A program made the translations under genes and the position numbers. Positions 899 to 35,543 of a stretch of DNA of 50,793 nucleotides are shown piece by piece. This stretch comes from Lachnospiraceae bacterium (GTDB taxonomy: Bacteria; Bacillota; Clostridia; Lachnospirales; Lachnospiraceae), in the NCBI GenBank assembly GCA_022799355.1, contig JAAWOG010000020.1, forward strand, positions 1 through 50,793, read 5' to 3'. The notes below the pieces were generated by a model. It ran no database searches and was not told where the DNA came from. It was given only the letters and a program-made list of their open reading frames with translations. The first letter of the stretch is position 1. Each line of letters begins with the position of its first letter.

Positions 899-1429
899 AT
901 GGCTAAAAAATTCGGAAAATTTTTAATGGTTACGGCAGCGATGGGAGCAGTGGCGGCAGGTGCTTATTATTATCTGCAGGAAAAAGGAAAGACTGTAAAA
1001 CAGGTGCTGGATGAGGATGATGATTTTGATGATTTCAGCGAAGACCTGGATGAGGAGATGGAAGAGAGAGGCTATGTGACGCTGACACCGGAGAAGGTAT
1101 CGGAGACTGTGAAGAAGGCGGCGGAAGAAGCAAAGGATTTCGCCCAGTTCGCGGCGGGAGAGGCGAAGGAATTTGCCCATGGCGTGATCCAGGGGGCGAA
1201 AGAGACTATCGCGGCAAGAAAAGAGAGCGCAAGGGCAGCGGCGGAGGAAGCAGCGGAAGCCGTACAGGATACCGTGGAGGTAGCGGAAGAAGCAGTGGAA
1301 GAGACTGCGGAGAAAACGGAAGATTTTTTCGAGGATGCTACGGAGAAGGTGAAGGAAGAGGTAAAAGAGGCTGCTGAAGCAAAGGAGCCCAAGGTGGAAA
1401 CTTTTATTGATGATGAGGATGAAGCATAA
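899..1429 (+). CDS. Membrane-anchored, highly charged helical protein of unknown function
   Basis: 176 residues. Residues 7-26 (KFLMVTAAMGAVAAGAYYYL) form a single N-terminal membrane segment. An acidic stretch follows (EDDDFDDFSEDLDEEMEE, about 39-56). From about 65 on there is a long alanine-, glutamate- and lysine-rich amphipathic helix with loose 11-residue periodicity (KKAAEEAKDFAQFAAGEAKEF and similar), ending in another acidic tail. This resembles YtxH-like or apolipoprotein/LEA-like helical proteins in composition, but no specific family can be named. The start is fixed by GGAGAG at 888-893 before the ATG. It lies 33 bp before addB on the same strand and may share its transcript. The long antisense frame over it is a composition artefact. 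Confidence 0.75.
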   Translation: MAKKFGKFLMVTAAMGAVAAGAYYYLQEKGKTVKQVLDEDDDFDDFSEDLDEEMEERGYVTLTPEKVSETVKKAAEEAKDFAQFAAGEAKEFAHGVIQGAKETIAARKESARAAAEEAAEAVQDTVEVAEEAVEETAEKTEDFFEDATEKVKEEVKEAAEAKEPKVETFIDDEDEA

Positions 1430-1462
1430 AATATAACGCCTGTTATCATAAAGGGGAAATGC

Positions 1463-4400
1463 ATGTTGTCATTTATTTTTGGCGGTTCGGGCGCGGGAAA
1501 GAGCAGCATACTGCAGGAGCGGATCATTCAGGAGTCCCTGAAACATCCTGAGAAGAGGTATCTGTTTCTCGTGCCCGATCAGTTCACAATGGAAACACAG
1601 AGGTCTTTAGTGGAAAAACATCCCTGCCACGGCATTATGAACATAGATGTTTTAAGCTTTGGCAGGCTGTCATACAGAGTCTTTGAAGAAACCGGCGGAG
1701 TATCTCAGCCGGTTTTAGACGATACGGGGAAAAATCTGATCCTGCGGATTGTGGCGGACCGGTTGAAACCGGAGCTTAAGGTGCTGGGCGGCTATCTGAA
1801 AAAGCAGGGATATATCCATGAGATCAAGTCCGCTATCTCGGAATTCATGCAGTACGGGATCGGGCTTGCGGAACTGGAGAAGATCATAGCCTTTTCCGAA
1901 AAGCGGGGAGCGCTGGCGGGAAAGCTGAAAGACCTTCTGTTGTTGTATCGGGGATTTGAGGAGTATATCAGGGACCACTATCTGACAAAAGAGGAATCAT
2001 TACAGGTGTTATCTTACAGAATAGCCTCCTCCTCCCTGCTGCGGGGGAGTGTTCTTGCCTTTGACGGCTTTACCGGTTTTACGCCCATTCAGCTTCAGGT
2101 GATCAGGGAGTTGATGAGTGTGGCGGAGGAGGTCTGCTTTACGCTGCTTTTTGACGGAAATCAGGAACCCCGTCAGGAAATCGGAGAACAGAATCTGTTT
2201 GCCCTTTCGGCAAAGACTTTCAGGGCGCTGGAGAAGTGTGCGGAGGAAGCGGGAACGGACAGGGGAGAGGATCTGTATTTAAAGGAGGTGCCGGTAAAGC
2301 GCCTTAACAACGTACCGGCACTGGCGCATCTGGAACAAAATCTGTTCCGGTATCCGCAGAAGGGCTTTTCGGGAGAGCCAACGGGGATTCATCTCGCCTT
2401 TTTGCCGGGGATGCGGGAGGAGGCGCGCTACGCGGCGAGGATGGTCCGGCGGCTGATTCGGGAGGAAGGGTATTATTTCAGGGATATCGGAGTAGTCTGC
2501 GGCAATCTGGAAAATTATGAATCTGTGATCAGCAGCGAGTTTTCCAAGCTGGGAATTCCTTTTTTTATCGACCAGAACAGGGGGATTTTGTTAAATCCGT
2601 TTGTGGAGTTCATACGAAGCGCGCTGCGGCTCTACAGCCAGGATTTTTCCGTGGATGCGGTGAATCACTATATCAGGACCGGGCTGACGGGGCTTTCTTT
2701 GGAGGCGGCGGATGAGTTGGACAACTATATCAGGGAGATGGGCATTCACGGTTACGGAAGGTGGAACAGGCTTTTTACAAGGCTGCCTGTCGGAGTAGAT
2801 CAAAAGAGCGCCACGGAGGAAGAAGGGGAGGGGGCGGATTTTCTTGCCCGTATAAATGAAGCGAGGCAGGAGATTGTGCGCAGTGCCGCATTTTTAAAAG
2901 AGATGGGAAAAACCGCTTCCGAAAAAGTACGGGCGCTCTACGATTTTATTGAGGAGAGCCGGATTCAGGAGAAACTTGCCGCCTTTGAAAAAGAATTTGA
3001 GGAAAAAGGGGAGATGGTGCGGGCGAGGGAGTACCATCAGATCTATCCCTTTATTATCGATCTGCTTTCGGAGATCGTGGAATTATCCGGGGGGGAAGAA
3101 ATGACGGATCAGGAGTTCGCGGAACTTCTGGACGCCGGATTTTCGGAGATGCAGGTGGGTACGATTCCCCAGAATGTGGACCATGTGACGATAGGAGACA
3201 TGCAGCGGAGCAGGCTGAAAGAAATACGGGTGTTATTATTTCTTGGCATCAACGACGGCAATATTCCGGGCAATGTGGGAAGCGGCGGCATTCTCTCCGA
3301 TATTGACAGGGAATTTTTACAGGAGTCGGAGTTTGAACTGGCGCCCTCACCGCGGCAGAAGATGTATACTCAGAGGTTATATCTGTATATGAATATGACA
3401 AAGCCCTCCGAAAAGTTGTATATGACATGGGCGGGCTGTGATCAGGACGGAAAGACGCTGCGTCCGGCTTATCTGGTGGAGACGGTGAAAAAACTGTATC
3501 CTGATTTGGTTGTGGAGACGCCGGAGGAAGAGACTATATTTGAGCGGCTGGAGACCTGGCAGGACAGCTATGATTATGTGGCGGACGCTCTGCGGGAGGC
3601 GGTTTCGGGGACTCTGTACGGGGAGCGGGAAGAGAAGCTTGTGCAGATGCTGAAGGTGATGCAGGAGAGGGAGGAGACGGCGGAAGAAGCCGGGAGGCTG
3701 ATGGGGAGCGCTTTTGCCGGATATGAGGAGGAGCGGCTTCCGAAGCAGCTTGCGCTGGCGCTCTGCGGGAGCAATCTGGTGGGAAGCATTACAAGGCTGG
3801 AGACTTTTGCTGCCTGTGCCTATGAGCATTTTCTGAAATATGAACTCCTTCTGGAGGAGCGGAAGGAATTTGGCTTTGCGGCGGTGGATATGGGGAATAT
3901 TTTCCACAGCGTGTTAGCGGAATTTTCGGAAAAACTCCCGGATAGGGGTTATAGCTGGCTGGATTTTCCGAAGGAGGAGGGTGAGAAGCTTCTGCAGGAG
4001 ATTCTGGAGGCAAAGACGGCGGCATACGGGAATGCGGTGCTTTATGAGACGGCGAGAAGCAGATATGCGCTTAAACGGATCGGGCGGATTATGAGGCGGG
4101 CCGTCTTTACATTGCAGTATCAATTGCAGCAGGGACAGTTTACCCCGAAAAAGTTCGAGATGTCCTTTTCCTCCCTGCAGGATTTAGAGGCGGTCAATGT
4201 GGCTCTGACACAGGAGGAGAAACTCAGGCTGGTAGGGCGGATTGACAGGCTGGACACCTGTGAGGAAGATAACAAGTGTTATGTAAAAGTGATAGACTAT
4301 AAATCAGGAAAAAACAGTTTTGATATCGTTGCGCTGTATCACGGGCTGCAGCTTCAGCTTGTGACTTATCTGAACGCGGCGATGGAATATGAGAAAAAGT

Positions 4401-4897
4401 CTGATCCCGGGAAGGAGATTGTACCAGCCGGTATTTTGTATTATCATATCGACGATCCGGTTCTGGAAATCCGGGAGGAAAAGACGCCGGAGGAGATCAA
4501 TGCGGAACTGCGGAAGGTGCTGCGTCTTACGGGGATCGTAAATGACGATGCGGAGATTATCGAGAAGATCGATGCCTCGCCGGGGACGGCAAAGGAGGTA
4601 CTGCCGCTGAGCAGAAAAAAGGACGGGAGTTTTGCGGAAAGTTCCCTGCTGATGAGTCGGGAGAACATAGAATTGATTTCGGATTTTGCAGCGAAAAAAC
4701 TGAAGGAGTTAGGCGGCAGCATTTTAAGCGGCGAGATCGGAATGCATCCCTACAGCCGTAAAGACAGGGAAGCCTGCACTTATTGTCCCTATGGCAAAGT
4801 TTGCGGGTTTGATAAAAAGCTGCCGGGATGCAGGAAGCGCACTCTGCCGGAGGAAGGGCGGGAGGAGATTTTTGAGAAAATGCGGGATGAAATGTAG
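1463..4897 (+). CDS. addB: ATP-dependent helicase/deoxyribonuclease subunit B (AddB)
   Basis: 1144 residues, the usual length for AddB. It partners with AddA in the Gram-positive counterpart of RecBCD: it processes double-strand breaks, recognises Chi-like sites and loads RecA. Visible features are the N-terminal Walker A-like GGSGAGKSS (residues 7-15), a RecB-type nuclease motif with VIDYKSGKNSF at about 944-954, and the four-cysteine Fe-S site: one cysteine near 786 (FAACAYEHF) and three near the C-terminus (CTYCPYGKVC, about 1104-1113). All expected nuclease and cluster residues are present, so it should be active. ATG at 1463 follows AAGGGG. addA starts 97 bp downstream, the conserved order. 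Confidence 0.97.
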   Translation: MLSFIFGGSGAGKSSILQERIIQESLKHPEKRYLFLVPDQFTMETQRSLVEKHPCHGIMNIDVLSFGRLSYRVFEETGGVSQPVLDDTGKNLILRIVADRLKPELKVLGGYLKKQGYIHEIKSAISEFMQYGIGLAELEKIIAFSEKRGALAGKLKDLLLLYRGFEEYIRDHYLTKEESLQVLSYRIASSSLLRGSVLAFDGFTGFTPIQLQVIRELMSVAEEVCFTLLFDGNQEPRQEIGEQNLFALSAKTFRALEKCAEEAGTDRGEDLYLKEVPVKRLNNVPALAHLEQNLFRYPQKGFSGEPTGIHLAFLPGMREEARYAARMVRRLIREEGYYFRDIGVVCGNLENYESVISSEFSKLGIPFFIDQNRGILLNPFVEFIRSALRLYSQDFSVDAVNHYIRTGLTGLSLEAADELDNYIREMGIHGYGRWNRLFTRLPVGVDQKSATEEEGEGADFLARINEARQEIVRSAAFLKEMGKTASEKVRALYDFIEESRIQEKLAAFEKEFEEKGEMVRAREYHQIYPFIIDLLSEIVELSGGEEMTDQEFAELLDAGFSEMQVGTIPQNVDHVTIGDMQRSRLKEIRVLLFLGINDGNIPGNVGSGGILSDIDREFLQESEFELAPSPRQKMYTQRLYLYMNMTKPSEKLYMTWAGCDQDGKTLRPAYLVETVKKLYPDLVVETPEEETIFERLETWQDSYDYVADALREAVSGTLYGEREEKLVQMLKVMQEREETAEEAGRLMGSAFAGYEEERLPKQLALALCGSNLVGSITRLETFAACAYEHFLKYELLLEERKEFGFAAVDMGNIFHSVLAEFSEKLPDRGYSWLDFPKEEGEKLLQEILEAKTAAYGNAVLYETARSRYALKRIGRIMRRAVFTLQYQLQQGQFTPKKFEMSFSSLQDLEAVNVALTQEEKLRLVGRIDRLDTCEEDNKCYVKVIDYKSGKNSFDIVALYHGLQLQLVTYLNAAMEYEKKSDPGKEIVPAGILYYHIDDPVLEIREEKTPEEINAELRKVLRLTGIVNDDAEIIEKIDASPGTAKEVLPLSRKKDGSFAESSLLMSRENIELISDFAAKKLKELGGSILSGEIGMHPYSRKDREACTYCPYGKVCGFDKKLPGCRKRTLPEEGREEIFEKMRDEM

Positions 4898-4994
4898 AAT
4901 CGTTACCGGAGGTGCGCATAATTTTGGGTGGTGCGGAAGAACGGAACGGATACGGTTTTGATAGGACTGTTTACAGGAAGAGACAGGAGAGGGT

Positions 4995-7900
4995 ATGAAG
5001 AGACAGTTTACGGAAAGCCAGCAGCAGGCGATCGAGCTGCGGGATAAGAATATTCTGGTGTCGGCAGCGGCGGGAAGCGGGAAGACGGCGGTGCTGGTGG
5101 AACGTATTATTCGGATGATCAGCGAAGGGGATCGTCCGGCAGACATTGACCGTCTTCTGGTTGTGACATTTACCGGAGCGGCGGCAGGTGAGATGCGGGA
5201 GAGGATCACTGCCGCCATTTCGGAAAAGCTGGCGTCGGAGCCGGAAAACGAGCATTTGCAGCGGCAGTCCGCGCTGATCCACAATGCCCAGATCACAACC
5301 ATCCACAGTTTTTGCCTTTTTGTGATACGGAATCATTTTCAGGAGATCGGGCTTGATCCGGCGTTCCGGGTGGCGGATGAGGGGGAAGTCGGGCTGCTGA
5401 TGCAGGATGTGCTGGAGGATGTGCTGGAAGAGGCATTTGGAGAATTGGAGAGGGCAAAAGAGGAGGAGAAGGAAGCATTTCCGTTTCAACTGCTGGTGGA
5501 AGCCTACGGCACCGGGAAGAAGGAGACCGTACTGGAAGAGAGCATTTTGTCCCTGTATCGTTTTGCCATGAGTTATCCCTGGCCGGAAGAGTGGCTCAGA
5601 GAACATGGGGAGGATTATGAATTTTCCACGGCGGAGGAGATGGAGCGGGCTCCTTTTATGAAATATCTGATGGAGTATACCGGAAATATGCTGCCGGAGT
5701 TGGCACAGCAGTTAAAGGACTGTATCAGGATCTGTGAAGAACCGGATGGTCCGTATATGTACGGGGAAAATCTGGAAAAGAGTTTTGAGGCGCTGGAGAG
5801 GGCGGCACAGGCGGAGGGTTTTTCGGGATGTCGAAAAGCGCTGGATGGAGTGACATTTGACAGGCTGTCCTCAAAAAAGGATGCGTCTGTGAACCCGGAG
5901 AAGCGGGAGGCGGTAAAACAGGCGAGAAACGGTGTGAAAAAGCAGTTGGAGCAGATTCGGGAGCAGTTTTTTCTGTTGGATGGGGAAGCCGTATTTGCGC
6001 AGTGCAGGCAGGTTTCACCGCTGGTACGGGAGCTGGCGGCGATTACGCTGCGCTTTGGGGAGCGCTTTGCGGAGAAAAAGCGGGAGAAGAACATAATAGA
6101 TTTTTCGGATATGGAGCATCTGGCGCTTCGCATTTTGTGCCGGCATAAGGAAGGAGAAGGAAGCACTGTTACGGAGCCAACCGCGGCCGCGCTGGAACTT
6201 CGGGAGTATTTTCAGGAGATCATGATAGATGAATACCAGGACAGCAATCTGGTGCAGGAATGTATTCTGAGCTGTATTTCAGGGGAAGATACGGGGCATT
6301 TTAATCGTTTTATGGTGGGGGATGTGAAACAGAGCATCTATAAATTCAGGCTGGCAAGGCCGGAGCTGTTTATGGAAAAGTTTTATGATTATGCCGGGGG
6401 GAGGGAGTGTTGTCAGAGAATCGATCTGCGCAGGAATTTCCGAAGCCGCATGGAAGTGATAGAAAGTGTGAATCTGATCTTTTCCCAGCTTCTTTCCCGG
6501 AATCTGGGCGGAATTGATTATGATGAGAACGCAAGGCTTCATTACGGAGCGGTGTATTATGATGAAGCGGAAGGCGCGAATAAGACGGAGCTTTTGATCA
6601 TAGAAAAACCGGAAGATGAGGATAAGTCCGCGGCGGAGCAGGAGGCGGAGTGCATCGCCCTGCGTATCAAGAAGCTGATGCGGGAAATGGAGGTACTGGA
6701 TCAGGAGAGCGGGCGTATGAGGCCTCTGCGGTATGGGGATATTGTTATTTTACTGCGCAGCAGCAGCGGGGTGGATGAAGCGTTTCAGGAAGTACTGGAA
6801 AAACAGGATATTCCTTGCTTTATCAGTTCGCGGACCGGATATTTTCAGACGTCGGAAGTGCAGGTTATCCTGCAGTTTCTGCGGGTGCTGGACAATCCTC
6901 TGCAGGATATTCCGCTGTTCGGCGTGCTGAAATCCTGCTTTGCCTCCTTTACGGATGTGGAGGTGGCGCAGATTGCGGCAGCGTTTCCATGCCGGCAGAA
7001 GCTGTATAAAAAGCTGGAGAAGTATGCGGAGCGTTCAGGTGGGAAAGGGGGTTTATGTTCTGAGGAATTTTCAGAAGAACTTTCCCGGAAATGCCGCAGG
7101 TTCCTTAACAGGATAGAAGAACTGCGGCGGTGCACGGTCTTTCTTTCGGTTCGTGAGCTGCTTGCAAAGATCATGGAGGAGAGCAGGTATCTGGAATATG
7201 TGACGGCTCTGCCGGGGGGAAGGCAGCGCCGCGCCAATGCCCAGATGCTGCTGCAGAAGGCGGCGGCTTTTGAGAAAACCAGCTTTAAGGGACTTTACCA
7301 TTTTATCCGTTATATCGATCAGATGGAAAAATACAGCATAGATTACGGGGAGGCGGGAACACAGGATGAGCTGGCGGATGTAGTCAGGATCATGACGGTG
7401 CATAAGAGTAAGGGGCTGGAGTTTCCGGTCTGTTTTGCAGCCGGTATGGGCAGAAAGATGAACCGGAGGGATGCCTCCGGGGCGGTGCTTACCGATATGG
7501 AAATGGGGATAGCGGTGGATCTGGTAGATCCGGTGCTGCGCATAAAACAGAAAACGCTTCGGAAAGCGGTACTTTCCCGGAAGATACAACTGGACTCCCA
7601 GGCGGAGGAGCTTAGGATTCTGTATGTGGCTCTGACGAGGGCGAAGGAGAAATTGATAATAACGGGTGTTACTGATGATCCGGCGAAGCAATTGCGCGGA
7701 AAAGCGGGAATCCTGAGGCAGAAAAATATGGCACTTCCCTACTCGGTCAGGAGCGGCGCGGGGAGTTTTCTGGAATTATTAATAGCATGTGTTATGAGAA
7801 AAGAGGGGATGGAGAATATTTTTTCGCAGCTACAGATAGAGGCGGAAGCTCAAAATATTTTTTTAGAGGACAAAATTCAGTGTAAAATAATGGAAAATGC

Positions 7901-29393: not shown

Positions 29394-29454
29394 TGAGGGA
29401 AATAAAATGCTCCGGCGCTTTTTAACGGGCTCCTTGAGCATTTTATTTCCCTCA
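29394..29454. terminator. Perfect 19-bp stem between convergent operons
   Basis: TGAGGGAAATAAAATGCTC (29394-29412) is exactly complementary to 29436-29454, around a 23-nt loop. It separates the kinase stop (29351) from the minus-strand phosphorelay operon ending at 29495. There is no T-tract on either side, but the stem itself is A/T-rich. The likely role is bidirectional termination or insulation. An imperfect echo of one arm (CAGCATTTTATTCAG) occurs at 29371-29385. Confidence 0.6.
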
Positions 29455-29494: not shown

Positions 29495-32194
29495 TTAAGC
29501 CGTCTCATTCGGATCGGATGCTTCGGAATAGGAAATAACCGCATCATTCTTTTTCATAAACAATAAACCGAAAGAGCCGGGACCGCAGTTGGAGGCTACG
29601 GCGGAAGAGGCTTTCTGCAAGTATACCCGTTCAAAAGGACAATATTGCTGCACCAGAGACCGGATATAGCGCAGCTTCTCCTCATTCATGCCGACATATG
29701 TGATAAACAGGACGCGGCGGTCAATATTCCTGGAGTTGATCAGCATTTTTCTGACGTAATGTCTGGCAACATGTGTAAAATTGCCGATTGCCATGCCGCT
29801 TACGACCATTTTGCTCTGGCGGAGCCGGATGATCGGGTGGAGCAGCAGCGCATCACAGAGAACCTGTATTCGTTTGGGAATCTTTCCCGCCTGACACATC
29901 ATATGGGTGCTGTCAAGGATGGAAGTAGAGGAAATATAGCGCCTTAAGTCTTTCACGGTAAGGATAATTTCCGCTTTCGGGGCATGCTTTTCCGCCATGG
30001 AAGCGGCGTATAAAACGCAGAGCCCCATACCGCCGGAAAGATGCCCGGAATCCAGTACGGTGACGTTCTCAAAGGATTTTGCCGCTTCAAGAGCATTGTG
30101 ATATCCCTGACCGGCATGCTTTGCCATTGTAATATGAATGACGTTTTGGGCTTCGGTCAGCTTCTGGGCAAAAAATCTTTCATAATCCTCCACTTCCGGC
30201 GCCTGGGAGATACATTCTCTTCCGGAAGCCACAAGAGAGAGCAGCTCGTCGGCTTTTAATTCGATGCCGTCCAGGAACCGGCCTTCCTCGGTGCGGATAT
30301 AGTAAGGGCATACGGAAATGCCGAACTCTTTTATCAGGGATTCCGACAGGTCGCATACACTGTCGGTTGTAACAATAAGAGAGTGCCGCTGCGCCTGTTC
30401 AAAGATCAGCACGTCCTTTGCGATCTCCGCCTGAATACTTTCCTCATTGAGCGTTACCAGTTCTTTTGGCAGGATGCTCAGAACGGCAGCCTCCAACAGA
30501 GCGCCGCTGACCGGTTTTGCCAGATAGCCGCTGAAACCTTCCTTCCGATACAGAAGCTGGTTGTTGCTGCCGGCATTGGCTGTGAGTGCGATCACGGGTA
30601 CATTCTGGCACAATCCGCCGGGCTGGCTGCGCAGAGCGTGAAGGCATTCGATACCGTCCATTTCCGGCATCAGATGATCCATCAGGATAGCATCATAATG
30701 CAGATTCTGTGTCAGCTTCAGGCATTCGGCACCGGAGGAAGCCGTGTCGATCTGAACTTTTGTCTCTGTCAGGAGCTTTCGCACCACTTTCAGGTTCATG
30801 TCATTATCGTCTACTACCAGGATATGTGCTTCCGGTGCCTCGAAACTCTGTCTGTAGTGTTCCCCGTCATGTATTTTGGCACGGGATGCCAGTGTGAATG
30901 TTCCCAGTTCCTGATCATCCACAATATCCTGCTCCAGCATAACCAGGAAGGTGGAGCCTTTGGTATAGACACTGTTGACGCTGATCTCTCCGCCCATAAG
31001 TTCCACAAGCTGGTGGACAATGCTGAGTCCTAAACCGGTGCCTTCGATATGGCGGTTTTTTTCTTCATCCACCCTCTTAAATGCATTAAAGATATAGGGG
31101 ATATTTTCCTTTTTAACACCAAGCCCGGTGTCCTCCACGGAATACCAGACGCGCACTCTGTTCAGCGTCAGGCGCTCACAGCGGACGGAAAGTGTGATGG
31201 AGCCCTGGCTGGTATATTTTACGGCGTTATTGAGCAGATTGATCAGAACCTGCTTGATGCGCACTTCATCGCCGCAGAGCATACTGGGGATCGAGGAGTC
31301 CACATGCAGCCGAAAGTCCAGCCCTTTTTCTTTTGCCTTAATCCATATCATATTGACAATTTCGGAAAACAGAGCCCCTGTTTCGTAGGAAACGTTAATA
31401 ATCTCCATTTTCCCCGACTTGATCTTGGAGATATCCAGAATGTCGTTAATGAGGGTGAGCAGCATTTTACTGGCACCCTGAATATTTCTTGCATTTTCAG
31501 CCACATCATCGGAAATATCTCCCCGCAGGATAATCTCGTTTAACCCGATAATCGTGTTGATGGGGGTGCGGATTTCATGGCTCATGCTGGAGAAAAAGTG
31601 ATTTTCCGCCTTGTTCAGTTCTTCAATCTCTTTTTTCTGCCGTACCGATAATTCGTTTTCCTCTTCATAGAGCTTCTGCAGAAACAGAAGCATGATACTG
31701 GTCAGCAGCCCGACTAAAATAACGGAAGTGGCGGAGTCAAAAAAGGAATGGCGCTGTGTATTGGTGGCGACAAGTTCCGGGAAGCGGAAAGCGATGTAAT
31801 AACAAAGCAGCGTCTCCGCACTGCAGAGCAGGAAAAAGATGCCTTTTCGCCTGCCTTCAAGAGTAATGCTGATATAAATAAAACAGAGCACAAACCACTC
31901 GGGCATACCACTGTAAAATCCGCCCGCCGTAAAAAAGCTGAAAGGGAAAAGCAGGAGAAGAAGCACGGAGATCGCCGTGGCTCCTCCGTGAATGCAGTTC
32001 TTCCGGATGCTGAATTTTACAATGGATGCTATACATACAAGGCTTGCCGCCAGGATCAGAAGATTGATAAAATTCCTGCCCATGGGAAGGATAATAATCA
32101 GCGAGACCATACAAATGCCCGTAACGATGCGGAACATACGCTCTTTCAGGCTGATTCTGTGATCAGAGATCGTTTCGATCCATTTTTTAAACAC
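29495..32194 (-). CDS. Hybrid histidine kinase-receiver protein fused to a DegV domain
   Basis: 899 residues from a GTG at 32194 (AGGAGG 8-9 nt upstream). Order: six or so membrane helices (about 20-190); a short coiled coil; HisKA with MSHEIRTPINTIIGLNEIIL (phospho-His about 203); HATPase_c with NLLNNAVKYTS and GTGLGLSIV; a receiver (AHILVVDDNDMNLKVVRK, phospho-Asp in ILMDHLMPEMDG near 503); and from about 598 a full DegV domain (LIVTTDSVCDLSESLIKEFG; SQAPEVEDY; TVLDSGHLSGGMGL; LLLHPIIRLRQSKMVVSG). DegV/FakB proteins bind fatty acids. The usual SSGLSGT loop is replaced by TMAKHAGQGY, so ligand choice may differ. It is the last gene of a three-gene operon and has no DNA-binding output. Confidence 0.88.
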   Translation of the reverse strand: MFKKWIETISDHRISLKERMFRIVTGICMVSLIIILPMGRNFINLLILAASLVCIASIVKFSIRKNCIHGGATAISVLLLLLFPFSFFTAGGFYSGMPEWFVLCFIYISITLEGRRKGIFFLLCSAETLLCYYIAFRFPELVATNTQRHSFFDSATSVILVGLLTSIMLLFLQKLYEEENELSVRQKKEIEELNKAENHFFSSMSHEIRTPINTIIGLNEIILRGDISDDVAENARNIQGASKMLLTLINDILDISKIKSGKMEIINVSYETGALFSEIVNMIWIKAKEKGLDFRLHVDSSIPSMLCGDEVRIKQVLINLLNNAVKYTSQGSITLSVRCERLTLNRVRVWYSVEDTGLGVKKENIPYIFNAFKRVDEEKNRHIEGTGLGLSIVHQLVELMGGEISVNSVYTKGSTFLVMLEQDIVDDQELGTFTLASRAKIHDGEHYRQSFEAPEAHILVVDDNDMNLKVVRKLLTETKVQIDTASSGAECLKLTQNLHYDAILMDHLMPEMDGIECLHALRSQPGGLCQNVPVIALTANAGSNNQLLYRKEGFSGYLAKPVSGALLEAAVLSILPKELVTLNEESIQAEIAKDVLIFEQAQRHSLIVTTDSVCDLSESLIKEFGISVCPYYIRTEEGRFLDGIELKADELLSLVASGRECISQAPEVEDYERFFAQKLTEAQNVIHITMAKHAGQGYHNALEAAKSFENVTVLDSGHLSGGMGLCVLYAASMAEKHAPKAEIILTVKDLRRYISSTSILDSTHMMCQAGKIPKRIQVLCDALLLHPIIRLRQSKMVVSGMAIGNFTHVARHYVRKMLINSRNIDRRVLFITYVGMNEEKLRYIRSLVQQYCPFERVYLQKASSAVASNCGPGSFGLLFMKKNDAVISYSEASDPNETA

Positions 32195-32241
32195 CTGGTG
32201 TTTCCTCCTGTTTTTTATGATAAGGATAAGTTATCCATTTT

Positions 32242-34845
32242 TCAGGATGTTTCCTGCAGTCCGGCAATGTGTTCGCATACTTCATCATAGAGAGAGAGCA
32301 GCAGCGGGTGATTTTGCCGGATATATGCCTCATCCGCTTTTTTACCTGCCAGTTCCAGTGCTTTCGCCTGTTCCGACAGCTTTTCCGCGCCGATGGTCAG
32401 CGATGTGCTTTTTAAGGCATGGACCTTGATCGCATAATCCGCCCAGACGGCAGCGTCATACAGGGAGATAATTTCGGCCTTTTTCTCCTCGGCCTGTGAA
32501 CAAAACATTTCCAGCATTTCCAGATAAAAATCCTCTTCTCCGCCGCAGTAATCCAGCCCCATCTCGATGTTGATGCCGATTTGTGCCAGAGAGTCAAAGG
32601 AGAGGGACGGCGGGGCATCGCTGCCGGAGGTATCCGAAGGAGCCGGTTTCGCCAAAGTATCCGAATCGGAGGGGGCTGCCGGAGCATCTGAGGGAGCCGG
32701 TTTCGCCGGAGTATCCAAAGCGGAAGATTCCGCCGGAGCGTCCGAAGGTTCCCATTCCCGGGAAGAAACCGGGGATTCGGATGAGGTTTTATACTGAATA
32801 TGGTTCTTTGGCAGTACTTTGCGCAATACCCGCTCTAAAACGGAGCGTTCAATGGGCTTGGGTATAAATTCCGTGAATCCTTCATGCCGGAACATTTCTC
32901 TTGCGCCGCTGACCGTGTTTGCCGTCAGAGCGATAATCGGCAGATCCTGATAGATGCCGTTTTCCATCTCACGGATTTTCCTTAAAGTCTGTACACCGTC
33001 AAAACCGGGCATCATATGGTCAAGGAAAACAATGTCGTAGGTAGTATCGGCACATCGCTCTACGGCTTCTCTGCCGCTTAAGCAGGTGTCCACCTGTATT
33101 CCGTAGCTGCCTAAAACTCCTTTTGCAACGACCAGGTTCATCTCTTCGTCATCCACCGCAAGAACACGGACTCCCGTACAGGAAAAAGGCTTGCGGCCTG
33201 CGGCCTGTGCTTCATCAAAGTCATTTTTCGTCGCTTCCCCATTTAAAAGGTTCACCACGGAAAGGGCAAAGAACGGTTTGCGGATCAGCAGCATCTTACT
33301 GTCTTTATCCGGTATAAAATCTCTTTCCGCGATCACTATGATCCGGATGGAGGCGTCAAGTTCTTCATAATAAGAGCGGTTCTCTTCATATTCGGACTGG
33401 GCAATAAATATATGAGTCAGCGCGTAGCTGCGCATCAGCTTCTGCAGCCCTTCCAGGTTGTGTGCCTGGTGCCCCTGAATACCAAGTCCCTCCATCATAT
33501 GCCGCAGCATATCGTCATAGTATCTGCGCACTTCATCGCTGCCGTATCTTTCCGGGCGGAAATAGCATGCGACACAAAGCTGTTCCGCATGGGAAACAAC
33601 CATGGAAGGCGTATCATCCTCCACACCCTGGGGGATGACAATATGGACCTGGAGGCCTTCCTGTCCCTTGCTGTCAAAATGGATAAAACCGCCCATGGCA
33701 TGAAGCAGTCCCCGGGCAATGGGAAGCCCCAGCCCCAGTCCGCCTGCAAAGCGGCTGCTTCCCGAATCGGCCTGATAGAAATCATCGCATATTTTGGTAA
33801 GCTGAGAGCCGGTCATACCGATTCCGGTATCATACATATCAATGGTAAGATTGACACCGTAGCTTTCCTTTCTGAAACCGACGCAGATGTTGATGCCTCC
33901 CTCCTCCGTAAATTTGATGGAATTTTCCATCAGAATTTTCAGAACATGGGAGATTTTTTCGGCGTCTCCGATCAGGACAGCCGGTATCCGGGGATCAATA
34001 TCAAACACCATTTCCAACTGATGGCGGTTGCTCTGCATGGCGGTCATGGTAATCACGTCATTCAGGAGGGAAGTGATCATATACGGTTCCCATGCGGGAG
34101 TCAGCGTACCTTCCACGATCTCCGTATAGTCCAGCATATTATTAATCTGGTTTGAGAGACGCTTGCCCGCCAGTTGTATGGAGTGCATATCTTCCCGAAC
34201 TTCCGGGGAGATGTCTTTTTCCAGTATGACTTCGCTGATCCCCAGCACCATATTGATGGGGGTTCTGAGTTCGTGGGATACGTTGGATAAAAATTCGGCG
34301 TTCTGCCGCCCGGCGGTCTCCAGTTCCGTAAGCATATCCGTCTGCTTTTTCTGATCATCCAGTCTTTTGTTGATCCGGTATATGGCTATTGCCATGGCGC
34401 CCGCCACAACGGTAGAGCCGAACCCCAGCCGTGCCAGGTTTTGCGGGCTCATAATATAAGTGATGGTGCGTAAAATAAAAAAATGGTACAGTAATTCCAG
34501 CAGATACAGACCGACTGTCATATAGAGCAGGATCTTTTTGTCAAACATGGAAAATACCAAAAGCAGCATACAGGCTACGGCAGGGATGTCGTAGAGGATA
34601 ATATTATGTACGCCAAAGAAAAAAAAGCCGACCATCAACAGGCCTGCGCATAAAGCCTCATAAAATGATTCGGTACCGATTCTCCCGATATGGAGAATCC
34701 ATACAAGGGAATTGCCGGTCACAATAATGGGAACCATCCATGGTTCCCAGGACATGGCAATGGTAATCAGCATCAGCATGACGCCGAATATGGTAACAAT
34801 ACCTGCCAGAAGCAGGTGTATGCTTGTTTGTCCTTTTGCTCTCAT
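32242..34845 (-). CDS. Hybrid histidine kinase with pseudo-receiver, receiver and HPt domains
   Basis: 867 residues. Membrane helices occupy about 10-150; HisKA has VSHELRTPINMVLGISEVIL (His about 188); HATPase_c has ENSIKFTEEGG and GGLGLGLPIARGLL. A degenerate receiver follows (about 400-540, lacking the acidic phosphorylation loop), then a good receiver (RVLAVDDEEMNLVVAKGVLG; FLDHMMPGFDG near 607). A proline/serine/aspartate-rich linker repeat (about 700-760) leads to an HPt domain with VHALKSTSL (His about 810). This is a phosphorelay protein that could pass phosphate back and forth with the two partners. Its ATG overlaps the preceding receiver's stop in ATGA. Confidence 0.9.
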   Translation of the reverse strand: MRAKGQTSIHLLLAGIVTIFGVMLMLITIAMSWEPWMVPIIVTGNSLVWILHIGRIGTESFYEALCAGLLMVGFFFFGVHNIILYDIPAVACMLLLVFSMFDKKILLYMTVGLYLLELLYHFFILRTITYIMSPQNLARLGFGSTVVAGAMAIAIYRINKRLDDQKKQTDMLTELETAGRQNAEFLSNVSHELRTPINMVLGISEVILEKDISPEVREDMHSIQLAGKRLSNQINNMLDYTEIVEGTLTPAWEPYMITSLLNDVITMTAMQSNRHQLEMVFDIDPRIPAVLIGDAEKISHVLKILMENSIKFTEEGGINICVGFRKESYGVNLTIDMYDTGIGMTGSQLTKICDDFYQADSGSSRFAGGLGLGLPIARGLLHAMGGFIHFDSKGQEGLQVHIVIPQGVEDDTPSMVVSHAEQLCVACYFRPERYGSDEVRRYYDDMLRHMMEGLGIQGHQAHNLEGLQKLMRSYALTHIFIAQSEYEENRSYYEELDASIRIIVIAERDFIPDKDSKMLLIRKPFFALSVVNLLNGEATKNDFDEAQAAGRKPFSCTGVRVLAVDDEEMNLVVAKGVLGSYGIQVDTCLSGREAVERCADTTYDIVFLDHMMPGFDGVQTLRKIREMENGIYQDLPIIALTANTVSGAREMFRHEGFTEFIPKPIERSVLERVLRKVLPKNHIQYKTSSESPVSSREWEPSDAPAESSALDTPAKPAPSDAPAAPSDSDTLAKPAPSDTSGSDAPPSLSFDSLAQIGINIEMGLDYCGGEEDFYLEMLEMFCSQAEEKKAEIISLYDAAVWADYAIKVHALKSTSLTIGAEKLSEQAKALELAGKKADEAYIRQNHPLLLSLYDEVCEHIAGLQETS

Positions 34846-35204
34846 GCCTTCTCCAATCCCAGTGCAACCCGTTTTAACAGTTCCTGGGGAGGAAAGGGTT
34901 TTTTCAGGTAATTGACAGCCCCCAGCTTTATCGCATTTCGTACATCGTCTTCATCCCCGGACGCCGTTAAGAAAATAACGGGAACATCAGTGGAAGACTC
35001 TTTCATACGTTTAAACGTTTCAATTCCGTCCATTTCCGGCATTGCGATATCAAGGAGGATCAGATCGATATTTTTGCCTTTGATCTGATCAAGCGCTTCC
35101 TTTCCCGAGCCGGCAAGAATAACTTCATATTCCGCTTTTAAAATTCTCTCTGCCCTTCTTAAATTCATGGTATCGTCATCTACGACTAAAATCCGTTTTT
35201 GCAT
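34842..35204 (-). CDS. Stand-alone receiver-domain response regulator
   Basis: 120 residues from the ATG at 35204 (AAGGAGG upstream). It is a single CheY-like receiver: RILVVDDDTMNLRRAERIL, phospho-Asp in LILLDIAMPEMDG (about 51), Thr in VIFLTASGDED and Lys in VNYLKKPFPP. No output domain is attached. It heads the operon and is translationally coupled (ATGA) to the HPt hybrid kinase, which suggests it is a phosphate shuttle or sink between the two kinases. Confidence 0.93.
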   Translation of the reverse strand: MQKRILVVDDDTMNLRRAERILKAEYEVILAGSGKEALDQIKGKNIDLILLDIAMPEMDGIETFKRMKESSTDVPVIFLTASGDEDDVRNAIKLGAVNYLKKPFPPQELLKRVALGLEKA

Positions 35205-35253: not shown

Positions 35254-35282
35254 ATTTTAAAATAGGAATGTGATAAAGTCAA
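35254..35282 (-). promoter_or_regulatory. Promoter of the phosphorelay operon
   Basis: On the minus strand TTGACT (complement of 35277-35282), 17-nt spacer, TAAAAT (complement of 35254-35259), giving a leader of about 40 nt before the receiver gene. Confidence 0.65.
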
Positions 35283-35391: not shown

Positions 35392-35543
35392 GGTTGAATA
35401 AATTCTCTGATGAGCAATTTATTCAACCAAGAATTTGTGCCGAAGCGTCACAAATTCTGTTGATCGCAGAGCAGAATTTGAAATTCTGCTCGCGTCCTCA
35501 ACGCAAAGCGCTTCGGAATGGAGGGAAAAATGAACTTCATTTT
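35392..35543. repeat. Array of four consecutive hairpins
   Basis: In 152 bp there are four perfect inverted repeats one after another: a 13-bp stem GGTTGAATAAATT (35392-35404 / 35416-35428), a 10-bp stem AGAATTTGTG (35430-35439 / 35449-35458), an 11-bp stem GAGCAGAATTT (35469-35479 / 35481-35491) and an 8-bp stem AAAATGAA (35527-35534 / 35536-35543). An outer pair, CCGAAGCG (35440-35447) with CGCTTCGG (35509-35516), could enclose the third. There is no coding frame. It may be a miniature element or a structured RNA. Confidence 0.6.

Follow-up and report, generated by a model that had tools for sequence, protein, structure and literature searches.

Three adjacent genes on the reverse strand of contig JAAWOG010000020.1 from a gut Lachnospiraceae bacterium (GCA_022799355.1; positions 29,495 to 35,204 of the 50,793 nucleotides analysed, hereafter the window) encode a lone receiver (REC), a membrane histidine kinase (HK) with a receiver and a histidine phosphotransfer (HPt) domain (HK-REC-HPt), and a second membrane kinase with a DegV domain behind its receiver (HK-REC-DegV), here called genes 1, 2 and 3. 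Our preferred reading, to which we give close to an even chance, is that this DegV domain would be a ligand-sensing domain derived from FakB that gates a phosphorelay with an output in cyclic di-GMP (c-di-GMP) or motility, functionally like RpfC/RpfG. The composition of the trio had been proposed in a first-pass annotation made from the letters alone, and open frames and Pfam agree with it; Pfam also names no DNA-binding domain in any of the three proteins, as had been claimed.

The DegV domain of gene 3

Gene 3 (29495..32194, reverse strand; HisKA-HATPase-REC-DegV by Pfam, 899 aa, starting from a GTG at 32194) ends in a DegV/FakB-fold domain at residues 608–881 (29552..30373, reverse strand; Pfam DegV, E 5e-35), slightly inside the span of 598–899 first assigned to it. 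The domain scores 121.6 bits against Pfam PF02645 (cut-off 27) and 132.8 against TIGR00762 (cut-off 99.7), and the region is predicted to adopt the two-domain DegV/FakB fold, in agreement with the earlier expectation. An alignment places T62, S95, S171, R173, R205 and H270 of Staphylococcus aureus FakB1 at S663, G695, A769, K771, I803 and N869 of gene 3.

Judged from these residues, the domain is a member of the DegV superfamily but misses the tested marks of a FakB carrier: the Thr62-Ser95-Ser171-His270 carboxylate network is not preserved in gene 3, and both Arg205 and Arg173 are replaced. In the accessible text of two studies, Arg205 is said to dock FakB to FakA and the membrane and to be fully conserved in FakB (PMC8892158), and Arg173, likewise said to be fully conserved, to be needed for FakB catalysis (PMC9136124). 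Residues were counted in 57 fused domains, namely those of the window and of L102, 7 of the 78 rows from close relatives (80 loci minus L102 and L134) and all 48 distant rows (the split proteins of L088 and L089 removed); N_L188 (misaligned, with 14% of columns filled) and N_L189 (the same protein as L085) were dropped. The Arg205 equivalent is Arg in 15 of 16 free DegVs vs 2 of the 57 fused domains (lost in 55; Ile803 in gene 3), and the Arg173 equivalent is Arg in 16/16 free DegVs vs 27/57 fused domains (absent in 30; Lys771 in gene 3). His270 is kept in 15/16 free proteins and changed in 56/57 fused domains, to Asn in 52/57. A hydroxyl residue stands at the T62 position in 47/57 (Thr or Ser in 16/16 free DegVs), and Ser occupies the S95 position in 33/57 (16/16 free); position 171, a Gly in 15/16 free DegVs, is a poor marker. 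The S95 column is Ser in 78/78 close relatives, yet Gly in the window. An alignment of 46 fused DegV domains and one free one (47 in all) has 36 invariant columns. Because His270 has been exchanged for Asn in 52/57, the T62 hydroxyl is kept in 47/57 and these columns do not vary, a specific site in the domain seems to be under selection.

Sensor and effector had been left equally open by the first-pass annotation. The balance has since moved, since the docking arginine and the head-group histidine are lost with one hydroxyl kept, which speaks against an effector that feeds FakA. Such an effector, in which phosphorylation of the receiver drives fatty-acid uptake or release for FakA and couples the kinase to lipid use, has only a slim chance in our estimate. 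The REC-DegV order does resemble the REC-output order of response regulators, and the genome has a FakA (a 566-aa frame on C68, 309.6 bits). Beyond the missing arginines, however, this genome is already served by eight free DegVs, and in relatives the DegV domain persists without a recognisable receiver or on its own: L088 and L089 encode it as a free protein in the next frame after HK-REC-HPt, overlapping it, and in L081 (7290–9878) and L084 (7451–10063) it sits on a kinase part without a recognisable H-box or receiver. An input role is favoured because no attached working receiver controls DegV in either pair of loci. The pseudokinase DegV proteins of L081 and L084 also provide a natural test of the sensor idea.

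We regard as unlikely a third possibility, that the domain binds no ligand and has a structural or dimerising role, the FakB fold serving as a scaffold that joins the two kinases while its pocket decays. The joint alteration of the S95, R173 and R205 equivalents in the window would suit it, as would the non-Ser residue at S95 in 24/57 fused domains and the lower conservation of DegV relative to the kinase core, but the single residue that replaces His270 in most fused domains, the retained T62 hydroxyl and the 36 invariant columns speak against it.

One HPt domain per kinase pair

DegV kinases were found in 126 loci and a partner kinase frame in 112 of these; the other 14 were set aside (contig ends, broken or unusual frames, and two pseudokinase loci). 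If the two kinases work as one relay with the HPt on any of the proteins, one HPt per pair is expected, and one is present in 111 of the 112 pairs. It lies on the partner in 102 loci, on the DegV kinase in 6 (with the layout HK-REC + HK-REC-DegV-HPt) and on a separate adjacent gene in 3, never on both kinases. The sole pair without an HPt is that of L139, where the partner is partial. In the window, the HPt of gene 2 (residues 776–852; 32290..32520, reverse strand; Pfam E 1.5e-7) is the only one of the three-gene set.

Residues of the relay are strongly retained. H206 of the kinase core and D506 and K560 of the REC in gene 3 are invariant in 32 aligned sequences, and its full-length identity to 31 aligned relatives is 73–83%. 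HK-HPt proteins without DegV in these loci (n = 112) carry the HPt box in 112/112 and the H-box in 111/112. The H-box, the receiver Asp and the HPt His, by which we judged a phosphorelay, are intact in the trio.

Conservation and distribution of the trio

The trio is a conserved unit and not a chance assembly. A scan of named genomes yielded 96 relatives, 80 of which were fetched (close loci L090–L169), and with all open frames counted the lone REC, HK-REC-HPt and HK-REC-DegV stand in order in 68 of the 80, which supplies the co-occurrence search that the first-pass annotation had proposed. Genes 1 and 2 overlap in 67 of the 68; with the window included (69 loci), the overlap is 4 bp in 62 and 1 bp in 6, and a 2-bp gap occurs in 1. 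Nine of the 12 loci without the full trio are cut by contig ends (L100, L102, L115, L134, L135, L141, L142, L143 and L164), L122 lacks the lone receiver, and L139 has a partial gene 2 and no lone receiver that we could find. The apparent absence of gene 2 from six close loci was rejected: tblastn matches gene 2 in 6/6, and the recount in all frames gives the trio. In L146, the last of the 12, two frames share the broken gene 2 homologue (3048–5595), and the DegV kinase of L134 (1–1689) is interrupted within its DegV part. No flanking gene family is common to more than 6 of 80 loci (79 plus the window; open reading frames of at least 110 aa within 6 kb, at 40% identity).

A search of 200 family genomes with the DegV part, the window's own included, gave matches at E 1e-20 in 73, and in 36 of the 200 the DegV belongs to a long frame or to a frame truncated at a contig end (the latter in G163 and G174); the one same-genus genome listed gave no match. 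With the 96 relatives, these counts dispose of the worry that the HK-REC-DegV order might be a rare assembly or annotation error. A phylum sample of 398 genomes had DegV-domain matches at E 1e-40 in 157, and among the matches listed long frames are those of the window's genome, two family members (1145 and 724 aa) and one 580-aa frame in the class. The HK-REC-DegV architecture is mainly a feature of the window's family. A free DegV of a sister type is encoded just upstream of the trio in L128 (4118–5038), with DSGN and HCGPN motifs and with Arg173, Arg205 and His270 kept; free DegVs like it also occur in the phylum sample.

Taxon labels were taken from record titles, and many records are metagenome bins. 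A quick tree could draw on a long-enough protein in 14 of 15 Oscillospiraceae-labelled and 36 of 39 Lachnospiraceae-labelled loci, and 12 of the 14 Oscillospiraceae rows form one clade within the Lachnospiraceae-labelled rows. This topology makes one transfer to Oscillospiraceae likely. Repeated transfer between the families was set aside, as with a single clade one transfer explains most of the rows. Among the 80 close relatives, 23 have titles with MGBC or iMGMC (mouse gut catalogues), and muris or musculi appears in the names of others; this may reflect a close subfamily specialised to the mouse gut, or biased sampling.

Output clues from neighbouring genes

Neighbours in the same gene run were surveyed in 50 family loci (L040–L089), some neighbours being without annotation. 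Enzymes of c-di-GMP stand in the run in 23 of the 50: REC-HD-GYP in 10, REC-GGDEF-REC-HD-GYP in 4, REC-GGDEF-REC in 2, REC-GGDEF in 4 (L053, L064, L082 and L088), a REC + EAL + GGDEF protein in 1 (L057), and two GGDEF membrane proteins after the gene in L081 (by Pfam) and L084 (by like length only). The HD and GYP motifs are present in 14/14 HD-GYP proteins and the GGDEF motif in all ten GGDEF regulators checked. A methyl-accepting chemotaxis protein lies directly upstream in 8 of the 50 loci (Pfam, 8/8), with CheA and CheW ahead of the receptor, confirmed by Pfam in L071 and taken from length in most others. The remaining loci have a lone receiver (5), are cut by contig ends (5) or have other neighbours (9). 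The output had been placed after translation or elsewhere by the first-pass annotation; the relatives narrow this mostly to c-di-GMP turnover or chemotaxis, although L046 also has a LytTR-type regulator in its run.

An ordinary phosphorelay, with the lone receiver as a Spo0F-like intermediate to a transcription factor here or elsewhere and DegV as one input of several, is in our view decidedly unlikely. In its favour, gene 1 consists of a receiver alone, like such intermediates, further HPt and hybrid kinases are encoded in the window's genome, and in L046 a REC-LytTR gene runs together with the pair. Against this stand the HD-GYP or GGDEF outputs, found in the 14 REC-HD-GYP family loci and in most others with an annotated regulator, and L046 is the sole case of a DNA-binding regulator within the run found among the 50 family loci, whose neighbours are only partly annotated.

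The window's own genome has hits for flagellin (3), CheW-domain (3), PilZ (2), GGDEF (7) and HD_5 (4) proteins, and on its contig 53 (L205) lies a separate cluster that encodes, one after another, an HK-REC-REC kinase (1017 aa), an HPt protein (118 aa) and two REC-HD-GYP proteins, so that targets for the lone receiver exist. Another HK-REC-HPt kinase of this genome (L206, 6420–9380; 986 aa) is 41% identical to gene 3 over 394 residues, and no DegV gene lies within the stretch read there. Recurrent companion proteins of 248–263 aa accompany L051, L053, L061, L064, L081 and L085; they end in a receiver, preceded by about 130 residues in which Pfam names nothing, and L075 has a companion that is alike by length only.

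That gene 1 might be a trimmed REC-HD-GYP remains a lead. Outside the close lone receivers, the first matches of gene 1 are HD-GYP receivers (L044, 48%; L051, 48%; L045, 50%). In a receiver tree of 65 rows and 121 columns, few for that number of rows, the lone receivers fall on one side of an 87/97 branch.

Proposed mechanism and points against it

In the mechanism that we propose, the two membrane hybrid kinases would act as a pair with a common HPt, giving a self-contained phosphorelay of three genes. Each kinase would phosphorylate its own receiver, and phosphate would pass to the HPt of gene 2 and on to the lone receiver of gene 1, a direction that we infer. The DegV domain of gene 3 would have given up FakA docking but retained its fold and some of its polar head-group site. 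A fatty acid, or an acyl ligand like it, bound to the domain would presumably serve as a signal gating the kinase-receiver step and would not be passed on for phosphorylation. The phosphorylated lone receiver would act through protein binding. Because the operons of relatives hold c-di-GMP phosphodiesterases, cyclases or chemotaxis proteins, motility or c-di-GMP control would be the likeliest output of the window's member.

Several observations weigh against a sensor with this output. Domains that follow a receiver on its C-terminal side serve more often as outputs than as inputs. With Gly and Ala at the S95 and S171 equivalents, the carboxylate site of the window is weaker than that of its kin, and over all fused domains Ser at S95 is far from general, while R173 remains Arg in nearly half of them; mean identity to the window is 71.6% for DegV vs 91.1% for the kinase core, making DegV the faster-evolving part. 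Further HK-REC-HPt kinases, not counted in the pair, lie near it in L051, L062, L064, L082 and L109, and an extra HPt gene shares the run of the pair in L046. In that locus (903–4474) REC-LytTR, the HPt gene and REC-GGDEF-REC-HD-GYP stand in a row before the kinase pair, and its relay may feed both transcription and c-di-GMP. OmpR-type regulators adjoin the pair in L056 and L072, each with its own kinase gene, and the lone receivers are not clearly nested among the HD-GYP receivers.

Gene boundaries and surroundings

Gene 1 (34842..35204, reverse strand; 120 aa, ATG at 35204, stop at 34842; Pfam Response_reg, E 4.7e-33) has GGAGG 5′ of its ATG. All 25 NCBIfam matches listed for it are below their own cut-offs. 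Gene 2 (32242..34845, reverse strand; HisKA-HATPase-REC-HPt by Pfam, 867 aa) starts at an ATG at 34845 that shares the letters ATGA with the stop of gene 1, in keeping with the coupling noted earlier for the first two genes. Its REC spans residues 561–673 (32827..33165, reverse strand; Pfam E 1.2e-19). Between the kinase core and this REC, a segment of about residues 412–556 (33178..33612, reverse strand) looks receiver-like by eye, with no Pfam match and no acceptor Asp apparent by eye.

Gene 3 follows after 47 bp, with AGGAGG 5′ of its GTG. It comprises a membrane sensor region (residues 1–180; 31655..32194), a HisKA-HATPase core (residues 198–421; 30932..31603; Pfam) and a REC (residues 458–571; 30482..30823; Pfam), all on the reverse strand, ahead of the DegV domain. 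The sensor region was placed by hydropathy and by helices in a full-length AlphaFold model of low confidence (predicted local distance difference test 59.2, predicted template modelling score 0.33) that was used solely for membrane helices. Each kinase opens with a series of hydrophobic stretches, and in neither does Pfam name a HAMP domain.

The single promoter of the first-pass annotation is no more than suggested. Of the promoter-like sites in the region, the best (TTGACT-17-TAAAAT, 10/12; 35254..35282, reverse strand) lies just 5′ of gene 1, but the region holds 11 such sites vs 8.6 ± 3.2 in shuffles, and a second, weaker one (9/12, 32245–32217) lies just 5′ of gene 3. The site scan listed no terminator-like site on the reverse strand between genes 2 and 3. 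Beyond gene 3, a perfect 19-bp inverted repeat with a 23-nt loop (29394–29412 and 29436–29454), not among the listed terminator-like sites, is possibly a transcript end, perhaps bidirectional, or a small repeat element. Two close inverted repeats of 13 bp each lie at 35392–35458, upstream of the promoter-like site before gene 1. The genes nearest to the trio look unrelated to it. On one side they encode a sugar kinase of the FGGY family, a transporter of the MFS type and a YhcH-type protein; on the other, a small protein matched below threshold, one that Pfam does not match and one resembling spermidine synthase.

Implications

More broadly, and as a tentative proposal that may well prove wrong, these loci could form a phosphorelay family of Lachnospiraceae in which an intracellular fatty-acid receptor derived from FakB is linked to c-di-GMP or chemotaxis signals, a Gram-positive counterpart of RpfC/RpfG built from different parts. 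A lipid carrier would have become a receptor by losing its kinase-docking arginine, and the DegV kinase would act only via its HPt-bearing partner. If this holds, gut Clostridia gain a route from cytoplasmic or membrane fatty acids to the control of motility and second messengers, and the family shows how the carrier subunit of an enzyme can turn into a signal receptor. Clear predictions, open to testing on purified domains, follow from the residue changes, from the single HPt of each kinase pair and from the relatives with split or pseudokinase proteins.

Comparison with known systems

The DegV/FakB proteins (PF02645) FakB1 of S. aureus, 2dt8 of T. thermophilus and 1pzx of B. stearothermophilus are free, whereas the domain of gene 3 is fused behind HK-REC; fused domains further differ from FakB in the lost Arg205 equivalent and the changed His270. 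As the first-pass annotation had stated, no functional study of the HK-REC-DegV architecture was found among open papers, and the DegV of PMC12688256 is, in its accessible text, a free DegV.

Gene 2 shares the HK-REC-HPt layout of the tripartite hybrid kinases BarA, TorS and ArcB, and BarA is its best NCBIfam match. It scores 296.2 bits vs a cut-off of 890 for BarA and 248.5 vs 676.5 for TorS, and unlike all three it is paired with a DegV kinase. CheY, DivK and Spo0F are single-domain response regulators, Spo0F being a phosphorelay intermediate. Gene 1, too, is a lone receiver (120 aa) but, unlike these regulators, is encoded with its own hybrid kinase and overlaps it.

In layout, RpfC/RpfG of Xanthomonas is the nearest working analogue. 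According to the accessible text of one study, RpfC is a HAMP-less membrane hybrid kinase carrying a REC and an HPt; the fatty acid diffusible signal factor (DSF) activates it, and it acts through RpfG, a REC-HD-GYP phosphodiesterase (PMC5391125). Gene 2, set alongside RpfC by layout alone, likewise joins a membrane kinase to REC and HPt and lacks a HAMP, and an HD-GYP regulator stands beside HK-REC-HPt in 14 of the 50 family loci. The DSF synthase RpfF is not among the ten annotated genes of the window, the rest of the window and the genome not having been searched for it. The systems differ in that gene 1 of the window's clade is a bare receiver without HD-GYP, and in that the family loci have a second kinase, which bears the FakB-type domain.

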